In this document: one piece after another, positions 1,696 to 52,640 of the stretch | Layout: the number at the start of each line of letters is the position of its first letter | Numbering within the stretch: position 1 is the first letter of the stretch | NCBI GenBank assembly: GCA_903859715.1 | Contig: CAIONS010000039.1 | Coordinates: forward strand, 1 to 52,640 | Direction: 5' to 3' | DNA: 52,640 bases | From: an uncultured Opitutia bacterium | GTDB lineage: Bacteria; Verrucomicrobiota; Verrucomicrobiia; Opitutales; Opitutaceae | Notes under the pieces: model-generated | What the model was told of the DNA's origin: nothing | What the model saw: the letters and a program-made list of their open reading frames with translations, nothing else | Database searches by the model: none | Program-made: the position numbers and the translations under genes

Positions 1696-2143
1696 ATCGC
1701 GGAAGCGCGGAGAAGCGGAAGCGCGGATTCGATCCCATGGAATTGATTGAGGCGGAGCTCTCAGGCCGGATTATCGGCTGCTGTATGCGGGTGCATCAGG
1801 TGCTCGGGCCCGGATTTCTGGAGAAAGTCTATGAGGAGGCGCAGGCCATTGAATTGGCCAAGACGGGTCTGGCCTTTGAACGGCAGAAGACCGTGGTACT
1901 TTTGTATGACGGGAAGCCGGTGAGGGAGCACCGGTTGGATTATTTGATCAGTGCGCGTGTCGTCCTCGAACTGAAAGCCTGCAAAGAAATCGAGGATATC
2001 CATCTGGCGACGGCGCGCTCTTATTTGAAGGCCACGAATTTGCCGCTGGCGCTGGTCGTGAATTTCGCCAAACCGACACTCGAAATCCGGCGGATTGTCC
2101 TCTCGCATTGATTCCGCGCTTCCTCCCTTCCGCGTTTCCGCGA
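1696..2143. repeat. Inverted-repeat unit enclosing the GxxExxY gene
   Basis: The left arm 1696-1726 begins ATCGCGGAAGCGCGG. The right arm 2113-2143 ends CGCGTTTCCGCGAT. By eye the 31-nt arms are complementary at 26 of 31 positions. They tightly frame the GxxExxY gene: the left arm ends 10 nt before its ATG and the right arm begins 1 nt after its stop. A gene-free relative at 23972-24059 has a left arm identical to the inverted right arm here at 29 of 31 positions. Confidence 0.8.
1737..2111 (+). CDS. GxxExxY protein, PD-(D/E)XK nuclease-like
   Basis: A 124-residue protein of the GxxExxY family, which is placed in the PD-(D/E)XK nuclease superfamily. The name-giving motif is G26-F-L-E29-K-V-Y32, within HQVLGPGFLEKVYEEA. 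The probable nuclease core is D68 (RLDYLI) followed by E78-x-K80 (LELKA), the spacing expected for PD-(D/E)XK folds. An amphipathic stretch (ATARSYLKATNLPLALVVNF) follows and matches the expected C-terminal helix/strand. The biological role of the family is not established as far as I know. The start ATG has no Shine-Dalgarno sequence but follows ATCCC. The gene is flanked by 31-nt inverted repeats and appears to be part of that repeat unit rather than of an operon with argH or mutL. Catalytic activity is inferred only. Confidence 0.88.
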   Translation: MELIEAELSGRIIGCCMRVHQVLGPGFLEKVYEEAQAIELAKTGLAFERQKTVVLLYDGKPVREHRLDYLISARVVLELKACKEIEDIHLATARSYLKATNLPLALVVNFAKPTLEIRRIVLSH

Positions 2144-2159: not shown

Positions 2160-4010
2160 ATGTCCAAAGTCCGCATTCTCACTGACCGGGTTGCCAACCA
2201 GATTGCCGCGGGCGAGGTGATCGAGCGCCCGGCTGCGGTGGTGAAGGAACTCGTGGAGAACGCCCTCGACGCCGGCGCCACCCGCATCGAGGTCGAGTTC
2301 CGCCATGGCGGCCGCTCGCTTATGCGGGTCGAGGACAACGGTTCCGGCATGGCGCGGGATGACGCACTGCTCGCCCTCGAGCGCCACGCTACCAGCAAGA
2401 TCGCCGAGGCGTCCGATCTCGACCGGCTGGCCAGCTACGGGTTTCGCGGCGAGGCGCTGCCGTCGATCGCGAGCGTGTCGCGCTTTGAGCTGCAGACGCG
2501 CGAAGCGGCCAGCGACGCGGGCACGGAGATCCTGGTCAACGGCGGCAAATTCGTCCACGTGCGCGACTGCGGCCGGCCGGTCGGCACGCGCATCGAGGTC
2601 ACGCACCTGTTCAACTCGGTCCCGGCGCGCCGGAAATTCCTGAAGACGGACCAGACCGAGGCGGCGCATATCATCCAGTGCGTGCGGCTTTACGCGCTGG
2701 CCTGCCCGCAGACGGCCTTCACCCTGGTTGAGGACGGCCGCGTGATTTTCCGCTCGCCCGAGTGTGCGACCCTGCTCGAGCGCGTCGCGGAGATCTTTGG
2801 CCGGCAGACCGCCGAGGCACTGGTGCCGCTGGAAGCGGGCGAGACGGGCGTGCGGTTGAGCGGGCTGATCGGCCGGCCGGGCGTCGGCCGGGCGACGCGG
2901 CACGAGATGATCGTGTTCGTGAACCAGCGGCCGGTGGACAGCCGCACGCTGAACTACGCATTGATCGAGAGCTACCACGAGTCGCTGCCGAAGGGCCGCT
3001 ACCCGCTCGCGTTCGTGTTCTTCGAATGCGACCCGGCGGCCGTCGATGTGAACGTGCACCCGGCCAAGCGCGAAGTCCGCTTCCGCAGCGAGCCGGCCGT
3101 GCGCGCGTTTGTGATCCGCAGCGTGCTGCAGAGACTGCGGGAGATTTCGGATTCCCACCTTCGCCAAGGCTTCGGCGGGCAAGCCGGAAACAGGAAACCG
3201 GACGGAGCGATTGCGGATTTCGGATACCGGAAACCGGAGAGTAATTTGTCCGCACCGGTGGCGCCATTGCAGGGTGGGACTGCGCCGCGACTGGCCGGGC
3301 AGGTTGGGCCGATTCCGTTTGTTGCGCCTGCCATGCCCCTCCAGCGCGTTGAAGGCAACGCGCTCCACCCGCAACCCGTCGCGGCGCCGACGCCTGCGTC
3401 CGGACCCAATCCGGTCTCCGGTCTCCGCAATCCGCAATTGGGCTGGCGTTTCATTGGGCTGGCCCACGGGAATTACGTTTTGTTTGAGACGGCCGTGGGC
3501 GTCGTGCTGCTGGACCGCCGGGCGGCCCATGAACGCGTGTGGTTTGAGCGGCTGCAGGAGCAGTTCCGGGCGGGTGCGGTGCCGAGCCAGCGATTGTTGC
3601 TGCCGGTGCCCATGGAGCTGGACCCGATCATGACGGCGCTGCTGCTCGACCGGCTCGCGTTTCTCAATGCCCACGGCTTTGAGATTGGGGAGTTCGGCCG
3701 GAATTTCTTCCGCGTCGAGTCGGTGCCCACTTGGATGGAGCCGGCGGACGCCGAGCCTTTCCTGCGGGACCTGCTGGGCGCCTTCCGCGAGGGCCGGGTG
3801 CCGGATAAGAACACGGATCTGGCCCGCGAGGACCTGGCGCGTCTTGCCGCCGCCAAGGCCATCCGGCTGCCAGCCACAGCGACCGAAACGGAGCTGCAGG
3901 CCCTGGTCGCCCAGCTGTTCGCGACCCGCACGCCGCTCACGAACCCGGCCGGCCGGCCGACCTACATCGAGTTACAGCATGGTGAGCTCGCGCGGCGGTT
4001 TCAGAGGTAG
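2160..4010 (+). CDS. mutL: DNA mismatch repair protein MutL
   Basis: MutL links mismatch recognition by MutS to downstream repair. The N-terminal GHKL ATPase is intact: NQIAAGEVIERPAAVVKEL (about residues 13-31), ENALDAGA with the catalytic Glu, DNGSGM, GFRGEALPSI and the FNSVPARRKFLK region. A transducer domain follows to about residue 320. The linker (about 325-430) has unusual composition and contains sequence shared with intergenic repeats elsewhere in the window. The C-terminal dimerization domain is present, but the endonuclease motifs are lost: DQHAxxExxxxE appears as DRRAAHERVWFE (from D452), the ACHGAI block as AAAKAI, and CPHGRP as NPAGRP. The protein is therefore probably not a nicking MutL. 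At 616 residues its length is normal. Confidence 0.96.
   Translation: MSKVRILTDRVANQIAAGEVIERPAAVVKELVENALDAGATRIEVEFRHGGRSLMRVEDNGSGMARDDALLALERHATSKIAEASDLDRLASYGFRGEALPSIASVSRFELQTREAASDAGTEILVNGGKFVHVRDCGRPVGTRIEVTHLFNSVPARRKFLKTDQTEAAHIIQCVRLYALACPQTAFTLVEDGRVIFRSPECATLLERVAEIFGRQTAEALVPLEAGETGVRLSGLIGRPGVGRATRHEMIVFVNQRPVDSRTLNYALIESYHESLPKGRYPLAFVFFECDPAAVDVNVHPAKREVRFRSEPAVRAFVIRSVLQRLREISDSHLRQGFGGQAGNRKPDGAIADFGYRKPESNLSAPVAPLQGGTAPRLAGQVGPIPFVAPAMPLQRVEGNALHPQPVAAPTPASGPNPVSGLRNPQLGWRFIGLAHGNYVLFETAVGVVLLDRRAAHERVWFERLQEQFRAGAVPSQRLLLPVPMELDPIMTALLLDRLAFLNAHGFEIGEFGRNFFRVESVPTWMEPADAEPFLRDLLGAFREGRVPDKNTDLAREDLARLAAAKAIRLPATATETELQALVAQLFATRTPLTNPAGRPTYIELQHGELARRFQR
3142..3438. 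repeat. Repeat-derived sequence within the mutL linker
   Basis: Positions 3207-3230 match 46800-46823 (just upstream of thrS) exactly over 24 nt. Positions 3209-3240 and 3411-3438 form an inverted repeat built from CCGGA/GCGGATT units. Positions 3343-3369, read in reverse, match the intergenic repeat at 12801-12827 at 24 of 27 positions. CTTCGCCAAGGCTTCGGCGG (3160-3179) also looks repeat-like. The reading frame stays open through the whole block, so the repeats have become mutL linker codons. Confidence 0.75.
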
Positions 4011-6737: not shown

Positions 6738-6879
6738 GGTAGCAGCCGACGTAAGGAGGCTGGGGTGGTAGGGCGGCGTCTTTGACCCGCCCTCTTGCAC
6801 GTCGCGCCGGAATCGAACCGGAAGGCAGGTCGAAGACCTGCCCTACTTTCAAACCCAGCCTCCTTACGTCGGCTGCTAC
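6738..6879. repeat. Inverted repeat, GTAGCAGCCGACGT family, outer element
   Basis: Left arm GGTAGCAGCCGACGTAAGGA… (6738-6764) and right arm …CCTTACGTCGGCTGCTAC (6854-6879) are nearly perfectly complementary. A GTAGGGCG-family element (6767-6846) is nested inside. It lies in the convergent gap between glgP and the efflux operon. Other copies are at 23286-23357, 35011-35265 and, as a half copy, 33043-33067. Confidence 0.85.
6767..6846. repeat. Inverted repeat, GTAGGGCG family (nested)
   Basis: Begins GGTAGGGCGGCGTC and ends GACCTGCCCTAC, with internal GACCCGCCCT and GGCAGGTC. It is inserted between the arms of the GTAGCAG element at 6738-6879. Confidence 0.75.
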
Positions 6880-21421: not shown

Positions 21422-23290
21422 ATGCCGCACCGTACCTGTCCCGCCGGTTCTTTCGTTGACTTGTGCCGGATGGCCGGTCGCCGGGCTGTGGCGCTGGTCT
21501 GGCTGTTTGGCCTCATGATTGCAGCACAGGCATCGGCCCACGCCAAGGATCGCTGGATGAAGGTGAGTACGCCGCACTTCACGATTCTGACGGCCGATTC
21601 GACCGATGACGCGAAGGACTGGGCGGTCGGCCTCGAGGCTTACCGACAGAGCCTTCAAGCCATGGCCGGGACCGATGACCGGATGCTGGATGCCGTGACC
21701 ATCGTGGTGTTCAAAAACGAACGCGCGTACAAGGCCGTGGCCCGGCAGGGCGAGAAGGAGGACTTTTACACGATTTCAAGCAGCCGGTTTGTCAGCCAGG
21801 AAGGACACTTTTTCGGAGCGGTCAATCCGGACGACGCGGAAGCGGCCCGGCACTCGGTCTTTCTCCAGGCCGGCATCTGGCTGACCAGTTCCTACCGCTG
21901 GCCCCTGCCGCTGTGGCTCGTGACGGGCCTGCAGCAGATTTACGAGGACTGTTCCTTGAGCAGCGGCCGGATTTATGTCGGAGGTGCGATCGGTGCCAAC
22001 ACGGAGAGCCTGAAGGGCGGTCTGCACCTGCCGCTCGATCAGATGTTGGGCATGACCACGAGTTCTGACGCCTACCAAAAGCCCGACGGCCATTTCAACG
22101 CCCAGGCGTGGGCGTTTGTGCATTACCTGCTGTTGGGCGACCACGACGCGCACCGGGCCACGCTGGCCGCTTACATGCAGGCCATCCAGCGCGGCGACGA
22201 TGCGGATGCCAGCCAGAAGCTGTTGTATCCGGACGGCCTGCCCGAGCTCAGCCGGCGCTTCACGCGTTTCGTCAACGACGGCGGTTACCGGATGGAAACG
22301 CTGTCGGTCAACGTGGGTGCGATCGTCGCCCAGGTTTCGGTGTCGCCTGCGCCGGAGGCCGAAGTGCAGACCGCGCTGGGCTATCTCCACCTGTATTTCC
22401 AGAGCGTGGGTGCGGCGGCCCCTTACTTTGACCGCGTGGTGGAGCTTGCACCCCAGGACCCGGCCACCCTCGAGGCTGAAGCCGAGCTGGCCAATGCCCG
22501 CGGGGATCAGGTCGAGCGGCAACGTTATTACCAGGAAGCAGTGCAGGCGGGATCGAAATCCTACCTGGCCCATTATTATGCCTTTTATCCGGCGGTGCAG
22601 GCCTTCTACGGCAGCGAGGCGGCGGCGGACGCCACGGACCCCGCGGCGGCCCGCCAGGCCGTCGACGGGATCAAGGACATGCTCCGGCTGCGGCCGGGCT
22701 TTTATGCCGGCTACGAGACACTGGCCGGACTGATGGGGTCTTTGGCCGAGGCGAATCCCGATGACCGGGTCGTGCTGCAGGAGGGACGGAAGTATTTCCC
22801 CGGTGATGCGGTGCTGGAATCGGGGCAGGCGGCCTATGAGATCCTGACCCGGAGCTACGTTTCCGCCAAGAACCGCCTGGACCGGGTGTTGAGCGGTGAC
22901 CTGGCCCACGCGGATCGCATCCGGCACTACGCCGAAAAACTGCGTGCGCGGCTGAATGCGGCCAACCGGTTGTATTGGCTGGAAAAATTCTATGCGGCGC
23001 AGGACTTCGACAATGTGGAAAAACTGCTGCCGGCCCTGGCCAGGGCACCGCTGTTGCCGGTAGAGCGGGAGCGTCTCGCCGCGGTGCGGGCCGGCATGTC
23101 GACCCGCGAGATGCTGGGCATGGTGAAGGAGGCGATTGCCCGGAAGGACTTCACCAGTGCAGACGCCCTGCTGGCCGAGGTGGAGAACACAAACCTGTCG
23201 GTAGAAATGCGGAAGGAAGTATCCGCCCTGCGGGCCTCCATCGCAACGGCGCGGTCTGGGATCGCCAAACAGCCGGCTTCAGCGAGGTAG
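21422..23290 (+). CDS. Secreted peptidase-like paralogue without zinc site
   Basis: A 622-residue exported protein (signal peptide around AGRRAVALVWLFGLMIAAQA) that aligns with its upstream neighbour: WMKVSTPHFTILTADST opens the domain and AWAFVHYLLLGD matches GESWCLVHYLLYGD. At the zinc site the neighbour's HEYVH is replaced by LQAGI (21863-21877), and the third ligand Glu by Thr (21923-21925), with identical 20-residue spacing. It is therefore a predicted pseudo-enzyme. The C-terminal ~350 residues are TPR-like. ATG 21422 follows CCACCC; ATG 21470 would give a shorter signal peptide. The stop TAG lies inside a repeat arm (23286-23357). Confidence 0.78.
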   Translation: MPHRTCPAGSFVDLCRMAGRRAVALVWLFGLMIAAQASAHAKDRWMKVSTPHFTILTADSTDDAKDWAVGLEAYRQSLQAMAGTDDRMLDAVTIVVFKNERAYKAVARQGEKEDFYTISSSRFVSQEGHFFGAVNPDDAEAARHSVFLQAGIWLTSSYRWPLPLWLVTGLQQIYEDCSLSSGRIYVGGAIGANTESLKGGLHLPLDQMLGMTTSSDAYQKPDGHFNAQAWAFVHYLLLGDHDAHRATLAAYMQAIQRGDDADASQKLLYPDGLPELSRRFTRFVNDGGYRMETLSVNVGAIVAQVSVSPAPEAEVQTALGYLHLYFQSVGAAAPYFDRVVELAPQDPATLEAEAELANARGDQVERQRYYQEAVQAGSKSYLAHYYAFYPAVQAFYGSEAAADATDPAAARQAVDGIKDMLRLRPGFYAGYETLAGLMGSLAEANPDDRVVLQEGRKYFPGDAVLESGQAAYEILTRSYVSAKNRLDRVLSGDLAHADRIRHYAEKLRARLNAANRLYWLEKFYAAQDFDNVEKLLPALARAPLLPVERERLAAVRAGMSTREMLGMVKEAIARKDFTSADALLAEVENTNLSVEMRKEVSALRASIATARSGIAKQPASAR

Positions 23291-23357
23291 CAGCTGACGT
23301 GAGGAGGCTGGTTGGCGGGGAACAGCGTCAAACCAGCCTCCTCACGTCGGCTGCTAC
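23286..23357. repeat. Inverted repeat, GTAGCAGCCGACGT family
   Basis: Left arm 23286-23313 and right arm 23331-23357 match at 26 of 27 compared positions. The TAG of the left arm is the stop codon of the upstream gene. It lies in the convergent gap with the cyclophilin gene and could form a strong hairpin in either transcript. Confidence 0.85.
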
Positions 23358-23902: not shown

Positions 23903-23971
23903 GGGAGAGGCAGCGAACCGAACGGATCGCGGTGCGGCAAGACACAAACATCCGTGGAATTCGGGAGAATA

Positions 23972-24059
23972 ATCGCGGAAACGCGAAAGGGCGGAAGCGC
24001 GGAGATCAGGAACCAGAAATCCGATTCCCGGTATTTCCGCTCCTTCGCGTTTCCGCGAT
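23972..24059. repeat. Gene-free inverted repeat related to the GxxExxY-flanking arms
   Basis: The left arm 23972-24002 begins ATCGCGGAAACGCGAAAGGG. The right arm 24032-24059 ends TTCGCGTTTCCGCGAT. The left arm equals the inverted right arm of the GxxExxY unit (2113-2143) at 29 of 31 positions. Only about 29 nt lie between the arms, so it looks like a miniature non-autonomous version. It lies just downstream of gmhA and upstream of the cyclophilin gene. Confidence 0.82.
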
Positions 24060-24064
24060 CATCC

Positions 24065-24622
24065 TCAGGCGAAGGCCTCGTCCACCAACTCACAGAAATG
24101 GTGGATCAGGAAAAGATGCGCCTCCTGGGCGGCCGCACCGCTCTGGCCGGGGATGATCAGTTCGCAGGTGGCGAGGCCCTTCGCCTTGCCGCCGCCGCGG
24201 CCGAGGAAGGCGATGCTTTCCAGGCCGAGTTTTTTCGCCTCGGCGAGGGCGGCGAGGATGTTGCCGGAGTTGCCGCTGGAGGTCAGCACGACGACAAGGT
24301 CGCCGGGCTTTGCGAGCCCGGCCAGCTGGCGGGAAAAAACCTGGTCGTAGCCGTAATCATTGCCGATGCAGGTGAGGAGCGAGCCATCCGCCGACAGCGC
24401 CAGGGCGGGCAGGGCGCGGCGGTTTTTCTGGTAGCGGCCGACCAGCTCGGTCGAAAAATGCCCGGCCTCGGCCGCACTGCCGCCGTTGCCGGCGATCAGG
24501 AGCTTTCCCCCGCGCCGGAGCGTCGCGAGGATCATCTGCCCGGCGCGGTCGATGGCCGGGCGGATCGTGGACAGCGACTGCAGGGTCTGCAGGGATTCGG
24601 CGAGCGAGGCTTCGAAGGTCAT
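24065..24622 (-). CDS. gmhA: D-sedoheptulose-7-phosphate isomerase, SIS domain
   Basis: Converts sedoheptulose-7-phosphate to D-glycero-D-manno-heptose-7-phosphate, the entry to the heptose of the LPS core. The protein has 185 residues, near the usual 190. Signatures: AGNGGSAAEAGHFSTELVGR (phosphate loop and catalytic Glu in TELVGR), VLTSSGNSGNILAALAEA, and HHFCELVDEAF at the C-terminus where GmhA has its catalytic His. ATG 24622 gives MTFEASLAESLQ; the longer open frame upstream runs through a repeat and is not coding. No other heptose genes are close by. Confidence 0.92.
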   Translation of the reverse strand: MTFEASLAESLQTLQSLSTIRPAIDRAGQMILATLRRGGKLLIAGNGGSAAEAGHFSTELVGRYQKNRRALPALALSADGSLLTCIGNDYGYDQVFSRQLAGLAKPGDLVVVLTSSGNSGNILAALAEAKKLGLESIAFLGRGGGKAKGLATCELIIPGQSGAAAQEAHLFLIHHFCELVDEAFA

Positions 24623-27394: not shown

Positions 27395-27480
27395 CTCACG
27401 CAGAGGCGCGGAGCACGCCGAGAAAAGCAGCCGACCGATCTGAATCAGAATTCTCCGCGTGCTCCGCGCCTCTGCGTGAG
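27395..27480. repeat. Inverted repeat (CTCACGCAGAGGCGCGGAG family)
   Basis: The 30-nt arms 27395-27424 and 27451-27480 are complementary at 29 of 30 positions. The element ends 2 nt before the sensor kinase stop, in the convergent gap with ruvC, and could serve both transcripts as a terminator-like hairpin. Confidence 0.85.
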
Positions 27481-34992: not shown

Positions 34993-35010
34993 GGGCGGGC
35001 TCGCGCAGCG

Positions 35011-35265
35011 GGTAGCAACCGAAGTCAGGAGGCTGGTTCAAGCCGCTTCCGAAGTACCGGCCGGAATGTTTTGGCCACAAAGAGGCACAAGGGCTCGAAG
35101 ACTCCGAATCGAATCTCCCGCGCGCCTATAGGCGCAATGGAGACTCATAAGCAGACGCAGATCTCTTGTGCCTTTTTGTGGCATCCCTTCAGGGTGAGGG
35201 CTCGGATATGTTGGGCTCTTCCGTCTTCACCATTCCAAACTCAGCCTCCTGACGTCGGCTGCTAC
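35011..35265. repeat. Inverted repeat, GTAGCAGCCGACGT family, interrupted by another element
   Basis: Left arm 35011-35038 (GGTAGCAACCGAAGTCAGGA…) and right arm 35238-35265 (…CCTGACGTCGGCTGCTAC). Between them lies a complete GGCCACAAAAAGGCAC-family element (35071-35187). The whole 34993-35362 gap is thus repeat material plus ~100 nt in front of aspS in which I see no distinct signal. Confidence 0.85.
35071..35187. repeat. Long palindromic element, GGCCACAAAAAGGCAC family, copy 3 (nested)
   Basis: Begins TTGGCCACAAAGAGGCACAA and ends CTTGTGCCTTTTTGTGGCAT. The central GCGCCTATAGGCGC is at 35122-35135. The left half has CTCCCGCGCGCC and the right half GCGCAATGGAGACTC. It is inserted between the arms of the 35011-35265 element. 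Confidence 0.87.
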
Positions 35266-35362
35266 TGGCTTATGCCCCGGTATGCCGCGGCATGACCGAA
35301 ATTCTATTTGCCCGCGGGGCCGGCGCTCCGCTTAGCTCTCCCGTTCCTCCCGGAACTTTCCC

Positions 35363-40736: not shown

Positions 40737-40879
40737 AATTTGCCCGCTAATCGACGCGAATGAAGCCAACCCATGACAAGCCCGGTTCTGTTCTGCTGGG
40801 GGGCGGAATCTTTATCGTCCGTGGGTTGGGTTTTGGCTCTGGAGAAATTCGCGTTTATTCGCGTCTATTCGCGGGTTCA
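40737..40879. repeat. Inverted repeat (CCCGC/GCGTCTATTCGCGGG family)
   Basis: The left part (about 40737-40762) contains CCCGCTAATCGACGCGAAT. The right part 40858-40875 is ATTCGCGTCTATTCGCGG. An inner pair CCAACCCATG and CGTGGGTTGG is nested. It separates the epimerase and dehydrogenase genes of the hydroxyproline cluster. Confidence 0.65.
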
Positions 40880-44805: not shown

Positions 44806-44893
44806 TTTAACCACGAAGGACACGAAGAGCACGAAGGAAGACCGCCGAGAGTCTGGCTTGGGCTTCGTGGCCTTCGTGCGCTTCGTGGTGAAA
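44806..44893. repeat. Inverted repeat, AACCACGAAGGACACGAAG family
   Basis: Left arm from 44806 (TTTAACCACGAAGGACACGA…) and right arm 44863-44893 (…GCGCTTCGTGGTGAAA). It fills the convergent gap between the ALDH gene and thrS, and so may end both transcripts. Confidence 0.82.
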
Positions 44894-46836: not shown

Positions 46837-46839
46837 TTC

Positions 46840-46920
46840 TGTCATTCTGAGCGAAGCGAAGGATCCAGTGCGAGCCGGCTGCGGAATCCAACTGGATCCT
46901 TCGCTTTGCTCAGGATGACA
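46840..46920. repeat. Inverted repeat (TCATCCTGAGCGAAGCGAAG family)
   Basis: The 30-nt arms 46840-46869 and 46891-46920 are complementary at 28 of 30 positions. This sequence type is widespread in bacterial intergenic regions. It lies between cysS and thrS. A second copy is at 52438-52596. Confidence 0.87.
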
Positions 46921-46932
46921 AAAAGGTCGGAG

Positions 46933-52431: not shown

Positions 52432-52437
52432 GGTTTC

Positions 52438-52596
52438 CCGTCATCCTGAGCGAAGCCGAAGGATCTCTGGAATCTTTCCGGATGGATCCGCGTCTGATGC
52501 GGACACTCGGGCAGCGTCGCCGGCTGAAGGAGAGATTTCCAGCGCGGTCCGAGGGCGAGACTAACAGAGATCCTTCGGCTTCGCTCAGGATGACGG
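52438..52596. repeat. Inverted repeat (TCATCCTGAGCGAAGCCGAAG family), perfect arms
   Basis: The 31-nt arms 52438-52468 and 52566-52596 are perfectly complementary by inspection, with 97 nt between. The same family is between cysS and thrS. The rest of the window end (52597-52640) shows no feature. Confidence 0.9.
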
Positions 52597-52640
52597 GGGA
52601 GAGAGGCCGGGTACAGCCGCTGCAGATTTCAGGGCTTTAC

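Follow-up and report, generated by a model that had tools for sequence, protein, structure and literature searches.

GxxExxY nuclease genes and the inverted repeats that frame them as a possible selfish element of a kind not yet described

The described systems that come closest to the locus reported here combine a gene with repeats. RAYT enzymes are present as several enzyme/repeat pairs per genome, and co-evolution of repeat and enzyme has been proposed (PMC3116915, PMC3733652). In REPIN/RAYT systems, as in the GxxExxY units described below, the enzyme gene lies beside or between the repeats and many extragenic hairpin copies carry no gene. However, RAYT is an HUH/Y1 transposase working on GTAG-tagged palindromes or terminal inverted repeats, whereas GxxExxY is a PD-(D/E)XK nuclease whose arms, read directly, are built of triple 7-base cores and lack the GTAG tag. 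The 428-nt intervening sequence (IVS) in the 23S rRNA of Coxiella burnetii is bounded by terminal inverted repeats, has tandem heptamers preceding an S23p ORF that lies in the loop, and has been proposed to be a mobile element (PMC4990558). An ORF within inverted arms that contain short tandem repeats is common to this IVS and the GxxExxY unit, but the former lies within 23S rRNA and its product is a four-helix bundle, whereas the latter is intergenic, encodes a protein of another family, and has a core plus spacer of 8-10 nt. Miniature (MITE) and insertion sequence (IS) elements share with the GxxExxY units the terminal inverted repeats and, in the case of locus L256, what looks like a derivative made by internal deletion; unlike them, the unit has neither a known transposase nor a clear target-site duplication. 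Cas4, lambda exonuclease, and RecB-like nucleases share the fold, the D..ExK active site, and a QxxxY-like helix motif with the GxxExxY protein, which differs from them in being a stand-alone, repeat-framed protein of 124 aa.

From these comparisons, the GxxExxY system is best read, by analogy, as working like RAYT/REPIN while being unrelated to it, and gene and repeats together have the appearance of a selfish element that has not been described before. The novelty lies in the enzyme-plus-repeat system, from which the enzyme that defines each of the repeat systems compared is missing. A general plan of enzyme gene, repeats, and gene-free copies is already known from REPtrons and IVSs, and a reader who counts that plan as the kind would see a variant of it. 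Within 5.39 million open-access papers, two name GxxExxY, each once and with repeats unmentioned, and none prints any of six arm strings of 15-17 bases.

The window (i.e., the whole stretch of DNA analysed, 52,640 nucleotides) belongs to a 3.18-Mb assembly labelled G000, which, judging by its gene content and by the named relative locus L272, is probably from an Opitutaceae-like verrucomicrobium. Its gene-bearing unit lies between two ORFs that, from their sequences, we take to be argH-like (287-1687) and mutL-like (2160-4010), and consists of a left arm on the forward strand (1696-1726) with about three copies of a CGCGGAA-type core (ATCGCGGAAgCGCGGAGaAGCGGAA), 10 nt, the GxxExxY ORF on the same strand (1737-2111; 124 aa), 2 nt, and a right arm on the reverse strand (2114-2144) that is the left arm copied inverted. 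An earlier sequence-only reading had placed 31-nt arms around this gene. The arms are real, with 26 of 31 positions paired in register (1696-1726 vs 2114-2144), but the right arm had been set one base off, at 2113-2143. In a repeat search of the window the pair spans 38 nt at 82% complementarity (1696-1733 / 2107-2144), the flanks of the gene have a pairing score of 20, and a single-stranded DNA prediction for the whole unit pairs the arms (z -3.1 vs shuffles). The string CGCGGAARCGCGGA, with up to two mismatches allowed, has 16 matches in the window compared with 4.8 expected, a number reached in 0 of 100 shuffles, and 10 of the 16 fall in this unit and in a gene-free unit near 23.97 kb.

The single ORF of annotated size in the unit encodes a protein that matches TIGR04256 (124.1 bits, cut-off 35) and PF13366 PDDEXK_3 (118.5 bits, cut-off 22). 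Profile searches with it returned these two families only, with no HUH/Y1 transposase and no S23p/four-helix bundle, and no known transposase (DDE, serine, or tyrosine) was found in that ORF. Residues D68, E78, and K80, earlier named as the catalytic core, are indeed conserved across the family: among 231 aligned proteins, position 68 is D in 228, position 78 is E in 209 and D in 20, and position 80 is K in 230. A QxxxY-like helix motif has its Q in 210 and its Y in 215 of these proteins, with T at the Q position in the window protein. The AlphaFold2 model, computed from the window protein and 41 relatives, has a pLDDT of 95.3 and a pTM of 0.88. The closest solved fold is Cas4 SSO0001 (Z 10.2 over 100 residues, rmsd 3.5), Holliday-junction resolvases give Z 6-7, and the best Foldseek match in the PDB is lambda exonuclease at E 0.0022, with no match there at E 0.001 or better. 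Z values of 6-8 on their own may indicate a common arrangement only. Taken together, the fold, the family match, and the catalytic residues make a predicted nuclease a sound reading of the protein. A sequence search of solved structures gave no match to the window protein, the PADLOC anti-phage defence models gave 0 families at E 0.01, and Rfam gave no match in the window at the gathering score.

Inverted arms also surround most of the other genes of this family that were examined. All five GxxExxY genes of G000 have them, with sequences that differ from pair to pair; at one (L005) the right arm is eroded, the score is 12, and a complete gene-free pair comes next. The order-wide set comprised 111 distinct GxxExxY genes from the 30 gene-positive genomes among 38 (121 matching rows less nine fragments or overlaps, the two rows at G003:C188 being treated as one), of which 110 were scored using 200-nt flanks and one was dropped for a short flank. 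Flank pairing reached at least 12 in 97, at least 16 in 79, and at least 18 in 72 of the 110, and the corresponding rates when flanks of different loci were cross-paired were 7.2%, 2.1%, and 1.4%; 13 genes scored below 12. Control ORFs (1195 of at least 80 aa, taken from the window and from eighty 20-kb stretches of eight genomes) reached 16 in 12 cases, and none of 34 window ORFs of at least 120 aa reached 12. The expectation that inverted arms are conserved at the borders of other GxxExxY genes is thus borne out in the order; neither a lack of matching arms at other GxxExxY genes nor an equal frequency of arms around unrelated genes was found. Core-type arms on both sides were present at 66 of 110 genes in the order and 48 of 76 in other phyla vs four of the 1195 control ORFs (250-nt flanks for GxxExxY genes, 200-nt flanks for controls). 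Three of those four ORFs are long (377-1321 aa), at least two of the three adjoining gene-free units, and the fourth is a GNAT gene.

The other-phyla genes come from a scan of the genomes of 84,980 species with the group alignment as query, which gave at least 80 loci; four of the 80 listed were dropped for short flanks, leaving 76. Among the matches listed are loci from Chloroflexota, Acidobacteria, Planctomycetes, Proteobacteria, Bacteroidetes, Cyanobacteria, Omnitrophota, and others, as well as archaeal loci (Methanosarcinales, Methanophagales, and Methanothrix, the last a locus that does not pair). Pairing among the matches listed was at least 12 in 62 of 76 and at least 18 in 43 of 76, with cross-pair rates of 31% and 7%, which are high because the arms there have a core in common. 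A second set of 40 GxxExxY genes, drawn from lower-scoring rows in 41 of the other-phyla genomes and scored with no cross-pair control, paired at 12 or more in 35 and at 18 or more in 23, with core-type arms in 27. Arms of this build frame most of the GxxExxY genes examined, the cores differing by locus, and, judging by the sampled sequences, they are nearly restricted to the GxxExxY gene.

Each arm is built from a 7-base core present in three near-direct copies. The core mostly takes the form CRCNRAN (e.g., CACGAAG, CGCGGAT, CGCTAAT, CGCAGAG) or else CAGGAAA, with spacers of mostly 1-3 nt between the cores and often TTTAAC or a close variant ahead of them. The lengths of core and spacer vary by locus and agree between both arms of one locus (equal spacing at 66 of 83 loci vs about 16% in cross-pairs, the latter figure with reverse-strand loci among L001-L035 left unturned). 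On the protein tree of the order, core and spacing are, by eye, shared within clades, and protein similarity correlates with core similarity (rho 0.187 over 64 loci, 0 of 1000 permutations) after exclusion of 74 same-site pairs by flank similarity, through which diverged orthologous sites may slip. Across phyla, the nearest Opitutales protein predicts 5.95 of 7 core positions vs 4.76 when permuted (best of 2000: 5.70), the agreement at positions 1, 3, and 6 being uninformative because the core grammar fixes them (exceptions: CAGGAAA, plus CCAGGAA in the control-ORF core-type test). The last core base is given by the nearest Opitutales protein in 75 of 80 loci vs 36% by chance, although the uniform last base of the listed set partly reflects the choice of query, since every one of the eight sequences aligned for the query has a G-ending core. 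In the 27 loci of the lower-scoring set alone, the core match is 5.63 vs 4.73 (0 of 2000 permutations), and the last core base agrees in 23 of these 27 core-typed loci. In raw counts that ignore kinship, the last core base covaries with residue 95 (T95 with G in 73 of 74) and residue 99 (L99 with G in 75 of 76), both of which sit in the helix bearing the QxxxY-like motif, and core position 5 covaries with residue 9 (T9 with G in 65 of 66). As far as such comparisons can demonstrate it, protein and core are linked across phyla, a link that could in part mean simply that gene and arms are inherited together as a single unit.

The window also contains gene-free units, listed without a strand. The unit at 23965-24066 has CGCGGAA-type arms like those of the gene-bearing unit (23965-23996 and 24035-24066) and had been taken for its miniature. 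The identity stands, at 29 of 31 positions between its left arm (23972-24002) and the inverted right arm of the gene-bearing unit, but the spacing in the register of the repeat search is 38 nt and not about 29. Two units with the CACGAAG core, which is the core of the resident gene L003 (18823-19053 and 44806-44893), and one with a CGCAGAG/CGCGGAG core (27395-27480; cf. CGCAGAG at the resident gene L004) were found by both repeat search and unit scan, and a unit with a CGCGAAT-like core (40745-40873) by the unit scan. In about 1.65 Mb from eight genome samples there are 61 paired units of the GxxExxY-arm build (60 gene-free units and the window's gene-bearing unit) vs 3 in reversed sequence; gene-free inverted doublets of the resident repeat are a trait of REPtrons, and gene-free copies are more numerous than gene-bearing ones. 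The 57 gene-free units of the eight genomes with at most 250 nt between their arms score 16.5 against the resident arms of their own genome and 13.1 against those of the seven others (1 of 5000 label permutations), and the resident arms of the own genome are the best match for 21 of the 57 (7.6 expected); in two of the eight genomes, G002 and G005, the sampled units are not closer to the resident arms, the difference being slightly opposite. Resident-core triples occur in the samples at 0.54 vs 0.15 per 100 kb (14 of 5000 label permutations). Sequence similarity of this kind indicates that gene-free copies resemble the arms of the resident gene, and that gene-bearing and gene-free units form one family, as had been supposed.

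Whole-genome counts of the cores in 12 congeners were compared according to the presence of the resident clade's gene. CGCGAAT doublets number 51, 53, 89, and 119 with the resident clade vs at most 36 without it (G000 36, G006 34, and G005 22, none with a gene of that clade). The BLAST counts for CACGAAG and for CGCGGAA, the window's own core, take the best 40 or fewer scored candidates per genome and include flanking-gene matches. For CACGAAG they are 57, 44, 57, and 30 with the resident clade vs at most 31 without, where the resident group includes G003 on the strength of a broken gene (L111) and G008 and G010 by virtue of L003-clade genes whose own cores are CGCCAAG and CGCGAAG. CGCTAAT is counted 25, 28, and 1 times with a resident gene vs at most once without, so two of three residents follow, the exception being G007, with eroded arms and 1 doublet. 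CGCAGAG is counted 7, 7, 7, and 3 times with a resident gene vs at most 6 (p 0.008), a signal that is weak because the counts are small, the residents' own arms are included, and the backwards control pattern gives 1-5 in five genomes. For CACGAAG and CGCGAAT, copy number follows the resident clade; for CGCTAAT and CGCAGAG it does so less clearly. For CGCGGAA it does not track the clade's gene in the 12 congeners (34, 38, 17, and 15 with the gene vs 42, 37, 28, 6, and less without; one-sided p 0.14). Matches in genomes without a detected gene of that clade number 42 in G009, 37 in G006, which is 92% complete and without a mutL match, and 28 in G002, which also has a short GxxExxY fragment outside the compared set. 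This result counts against the simplest form of the autonomous/miniature pair. The RAYT-like behaviour suggested by the sequence-only reading fits in gross terms.

The comparison of corresponding sites in related species demonstrates filled, gene-free, and empty states. Between two genes that we take to be nusB and ftsY, G000, G005, and G011 each have a gene-bearing unit with CAGGAAA as the core of its arms. At the same site G012 (L256) has CAGGAAA arms and apparently the start and end of the ORF but not its central part, 134 nt in total, and so looks like a miniature that arose through an internal deletion; a gene-free unit in G009 has the CGCGAAT core and resembles the arms of the gene resident in that genome; a CGCGGAT unit is present in G002 and G004; different hairpin units occupy the site in others; and G015 has just 7 nt. 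Between argH and mutL, the gene unit is present in G000, G005, G010, G004 (with one stop codon), and G013 (L048, where the left arm extends into the end of the upstream ORF and the pairing score is 24.5). Four others (G001, G002, G003, and G012) retain remnants of the right arm there; G009 has a trace at most, and the arms are absent from G008, G011, and G014. The 23.97-kb unit is missing from the corresponding site in G001 and G002, and other hairpin units are present in G005, G008, and G010 (the site could be read through in these five of ten congeners). No clear target-site duplication is seen, at least 6 nt being repeated in 4.3% of 140 gene-bearing units vs 1.8% of cross-pairs; for gene-free units the figures are 6% of 32 vs 1%.

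A further site, that of the window's unit at 44806-44893 (L437-L447), has CACGAAG in G000, CGCGAAG-like cores in G002 and G008, CGCNGAG-like cores in G004 and G006, a AACGCGTT-rich hairpin family in G003, G005, G007, and G009, and nothing in G001. The loops are partly similar in G004, G006, and G011, and different cores combined with partly similar loops appear as if the arms had changed core in concert.

The window's unit is probably a foldback element whose sole gene encodes the GxxExxY nuclease, a protein that would read its own core and cut, with repair spreading the units. The protein would recognise its core in the arms both in cis and in trans, either as duplex or cruciform or as a hairpin once the region is single-stranded, and would cut at the arm cores. 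Repair or re-joining after the cut would spread the unit and also preserve the likeness between its two arms and among the scattered copies, and copies without the gene would persist as non-autonomous units. Binding, cutting, and cut-driven spread by the protein are what we infer, and we know of no excision intermediate or activity for GxxExxY units. A wider reading, held more tentatively and with less confidence, is that GxxExxY proteins are sequence-specific nucleases that read a 7-base core through few residues (candidates 9, 95, and 99) and drive foldback selfish elements, and that cut arms are re-copied, so that the resident protein would hold the units of a genome to one core. If true, this would be a class of mobile element with a PD-(D/E)XK nuclease as its sole enzyme and a readable protein-to-DNA code, found in Bacteria and some Archaea.

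Other explanations would account for parts of these data. The unit could act at the RNA level, with the arms forming a transcript hairpin, the protein or RNase III processing the RNA, and the DNA repeats arising as a by-product, which we consider unlikely. Among 82 loci with both neighbours called, the gene is in sense with its neighbours in 47 of 63 co-directional cases, a preference (47 vs 16) that an RNA-level role also predicts but that leaves 16 of 63 genes antisense. The 23S rRNA IVS is laid out alike, with short tandem repeats and with an ORF in the loop between inverted arms, and is excised by RNase III (PMC4990558); however, the best fold matches of the GxxExxY protein are DNA nucleases, and an RNA stem needs no three-fold core that is common to scattered loci and tied to the protein. 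Sense-strand wobble is favoured among arm mismatches in 30 other-phyla loci (47 vs 25, p 0.013), whereas the Opitutales subset is opposite (45 vs 86, p 0.0004) and the remaining subset has 60 vs 46. Over all sets there is no G-U-compatible excess (152 vs 157), which leans to DNA over RNA. About as improbable is a captured passenger, i.e., GxxExxY genes merely housed inside ordinary miniature repeats spread by some other enzyme. Gene-free copies that outnumber gene-bearing ones, genomes rich in the units of a core without the matching gene, and other hairpin families at identical intergenic sites would all be expected of a passenger, but the core follows the protein subfamily across phyla, archaea included, and copy number follows the resident clade for CACGAAG and CGCGAAT.

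A nuclease with another cellular role, autoregulated or of an immunity type, for which the cores would be operator or self-recognition sites and the gene-free units decoys or targets, is considerably less probable than either of these. Repeated short cores beside a start codon resemble operator sites, and the covariation of residues 95 and 99 of the QxxxY-like helix with the last core base would suit such a role; against it, cores also lie downstream in inverted order, the unit has no partner gene, and PADLOC gave no match. Template-switch correction of quasi-palindromes is a known process that would produce arm-to-arm identity with the protein uninvolved, but as a mutational artefact of this sort the unit would be very hard to credit, since both the core-type arms at 66 of 110 family genes vs 4 of 1195 other ORFs and the protein-core link across phyla would be left unexplained.

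Hairpins of the CACGAAG, CGCGGAA, and CGCGAAT sort are common in the sampled genomes (60 gene-free units in about 1.65 Mb), and linking them to a widespread family without an assigned function provides a testable role for both. The link between protein and core also offers a natural series of nuclease specificities.

Several further observations concern other genes with paired flanks. The GNAT acetyltransferase gene (L198), which lies in a unit-like pair, is the single unrelated small gene so placed and was set aside as chance or passenger. Two control ORFs have high flank pairing, one of 295 aa (L206, 17730-18614; score 45) and one that, from its sequence, is presumably a RAYT-like transposase (L221, 10337-11272; score 20). 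On an IMG/VR contig of 6563 bases, a GxxExxY gene (L271, 1450-1925) has CACAAAG/CACGAAG-like repeats on either side. Four-helix-bundle/23S rRNA IVP genes (TIGR02436; L113-L142) in GxxExxY-bearing genomes also sit in inverted arms: of 30 tested from 138 rows, 21 pair at 12 or more (cross-pairs 6.6%) and 11 at 18 or more (2.6%). By eye, their arms consist mostly of near-tandem units of about 7 nt (e.g., GTAGCGA, AGGAGTC, GATAGGC), resembling the tandem heptamers of the Coxiella 23S IVS, and the presence of these genes in similar arms suggests that the 23S rRNA IVS is one instance of a broader range of genes borne in hairpins.

The window contains other inverted repeats as well. One inverted pair (90%; 3210-3238 / 3410-3438) lies within the coding region of the mutL-like ORF, where a broadly similar unit seems to be part of the reading frame. 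GTAG-headed inverted repeats (GTAGCAGCCGACGTAAGGAGGCTGGG and variants) at 6739-6879, 23287-23357, and 35007-35270 look like the REP/RAYT type and form a family separate from the GxxExxY units, and inverted pairs of the TCATTCTGAGCGAAGCGAAGGATC type at 46837-46923 and 52437-52597 represent another repeat family.
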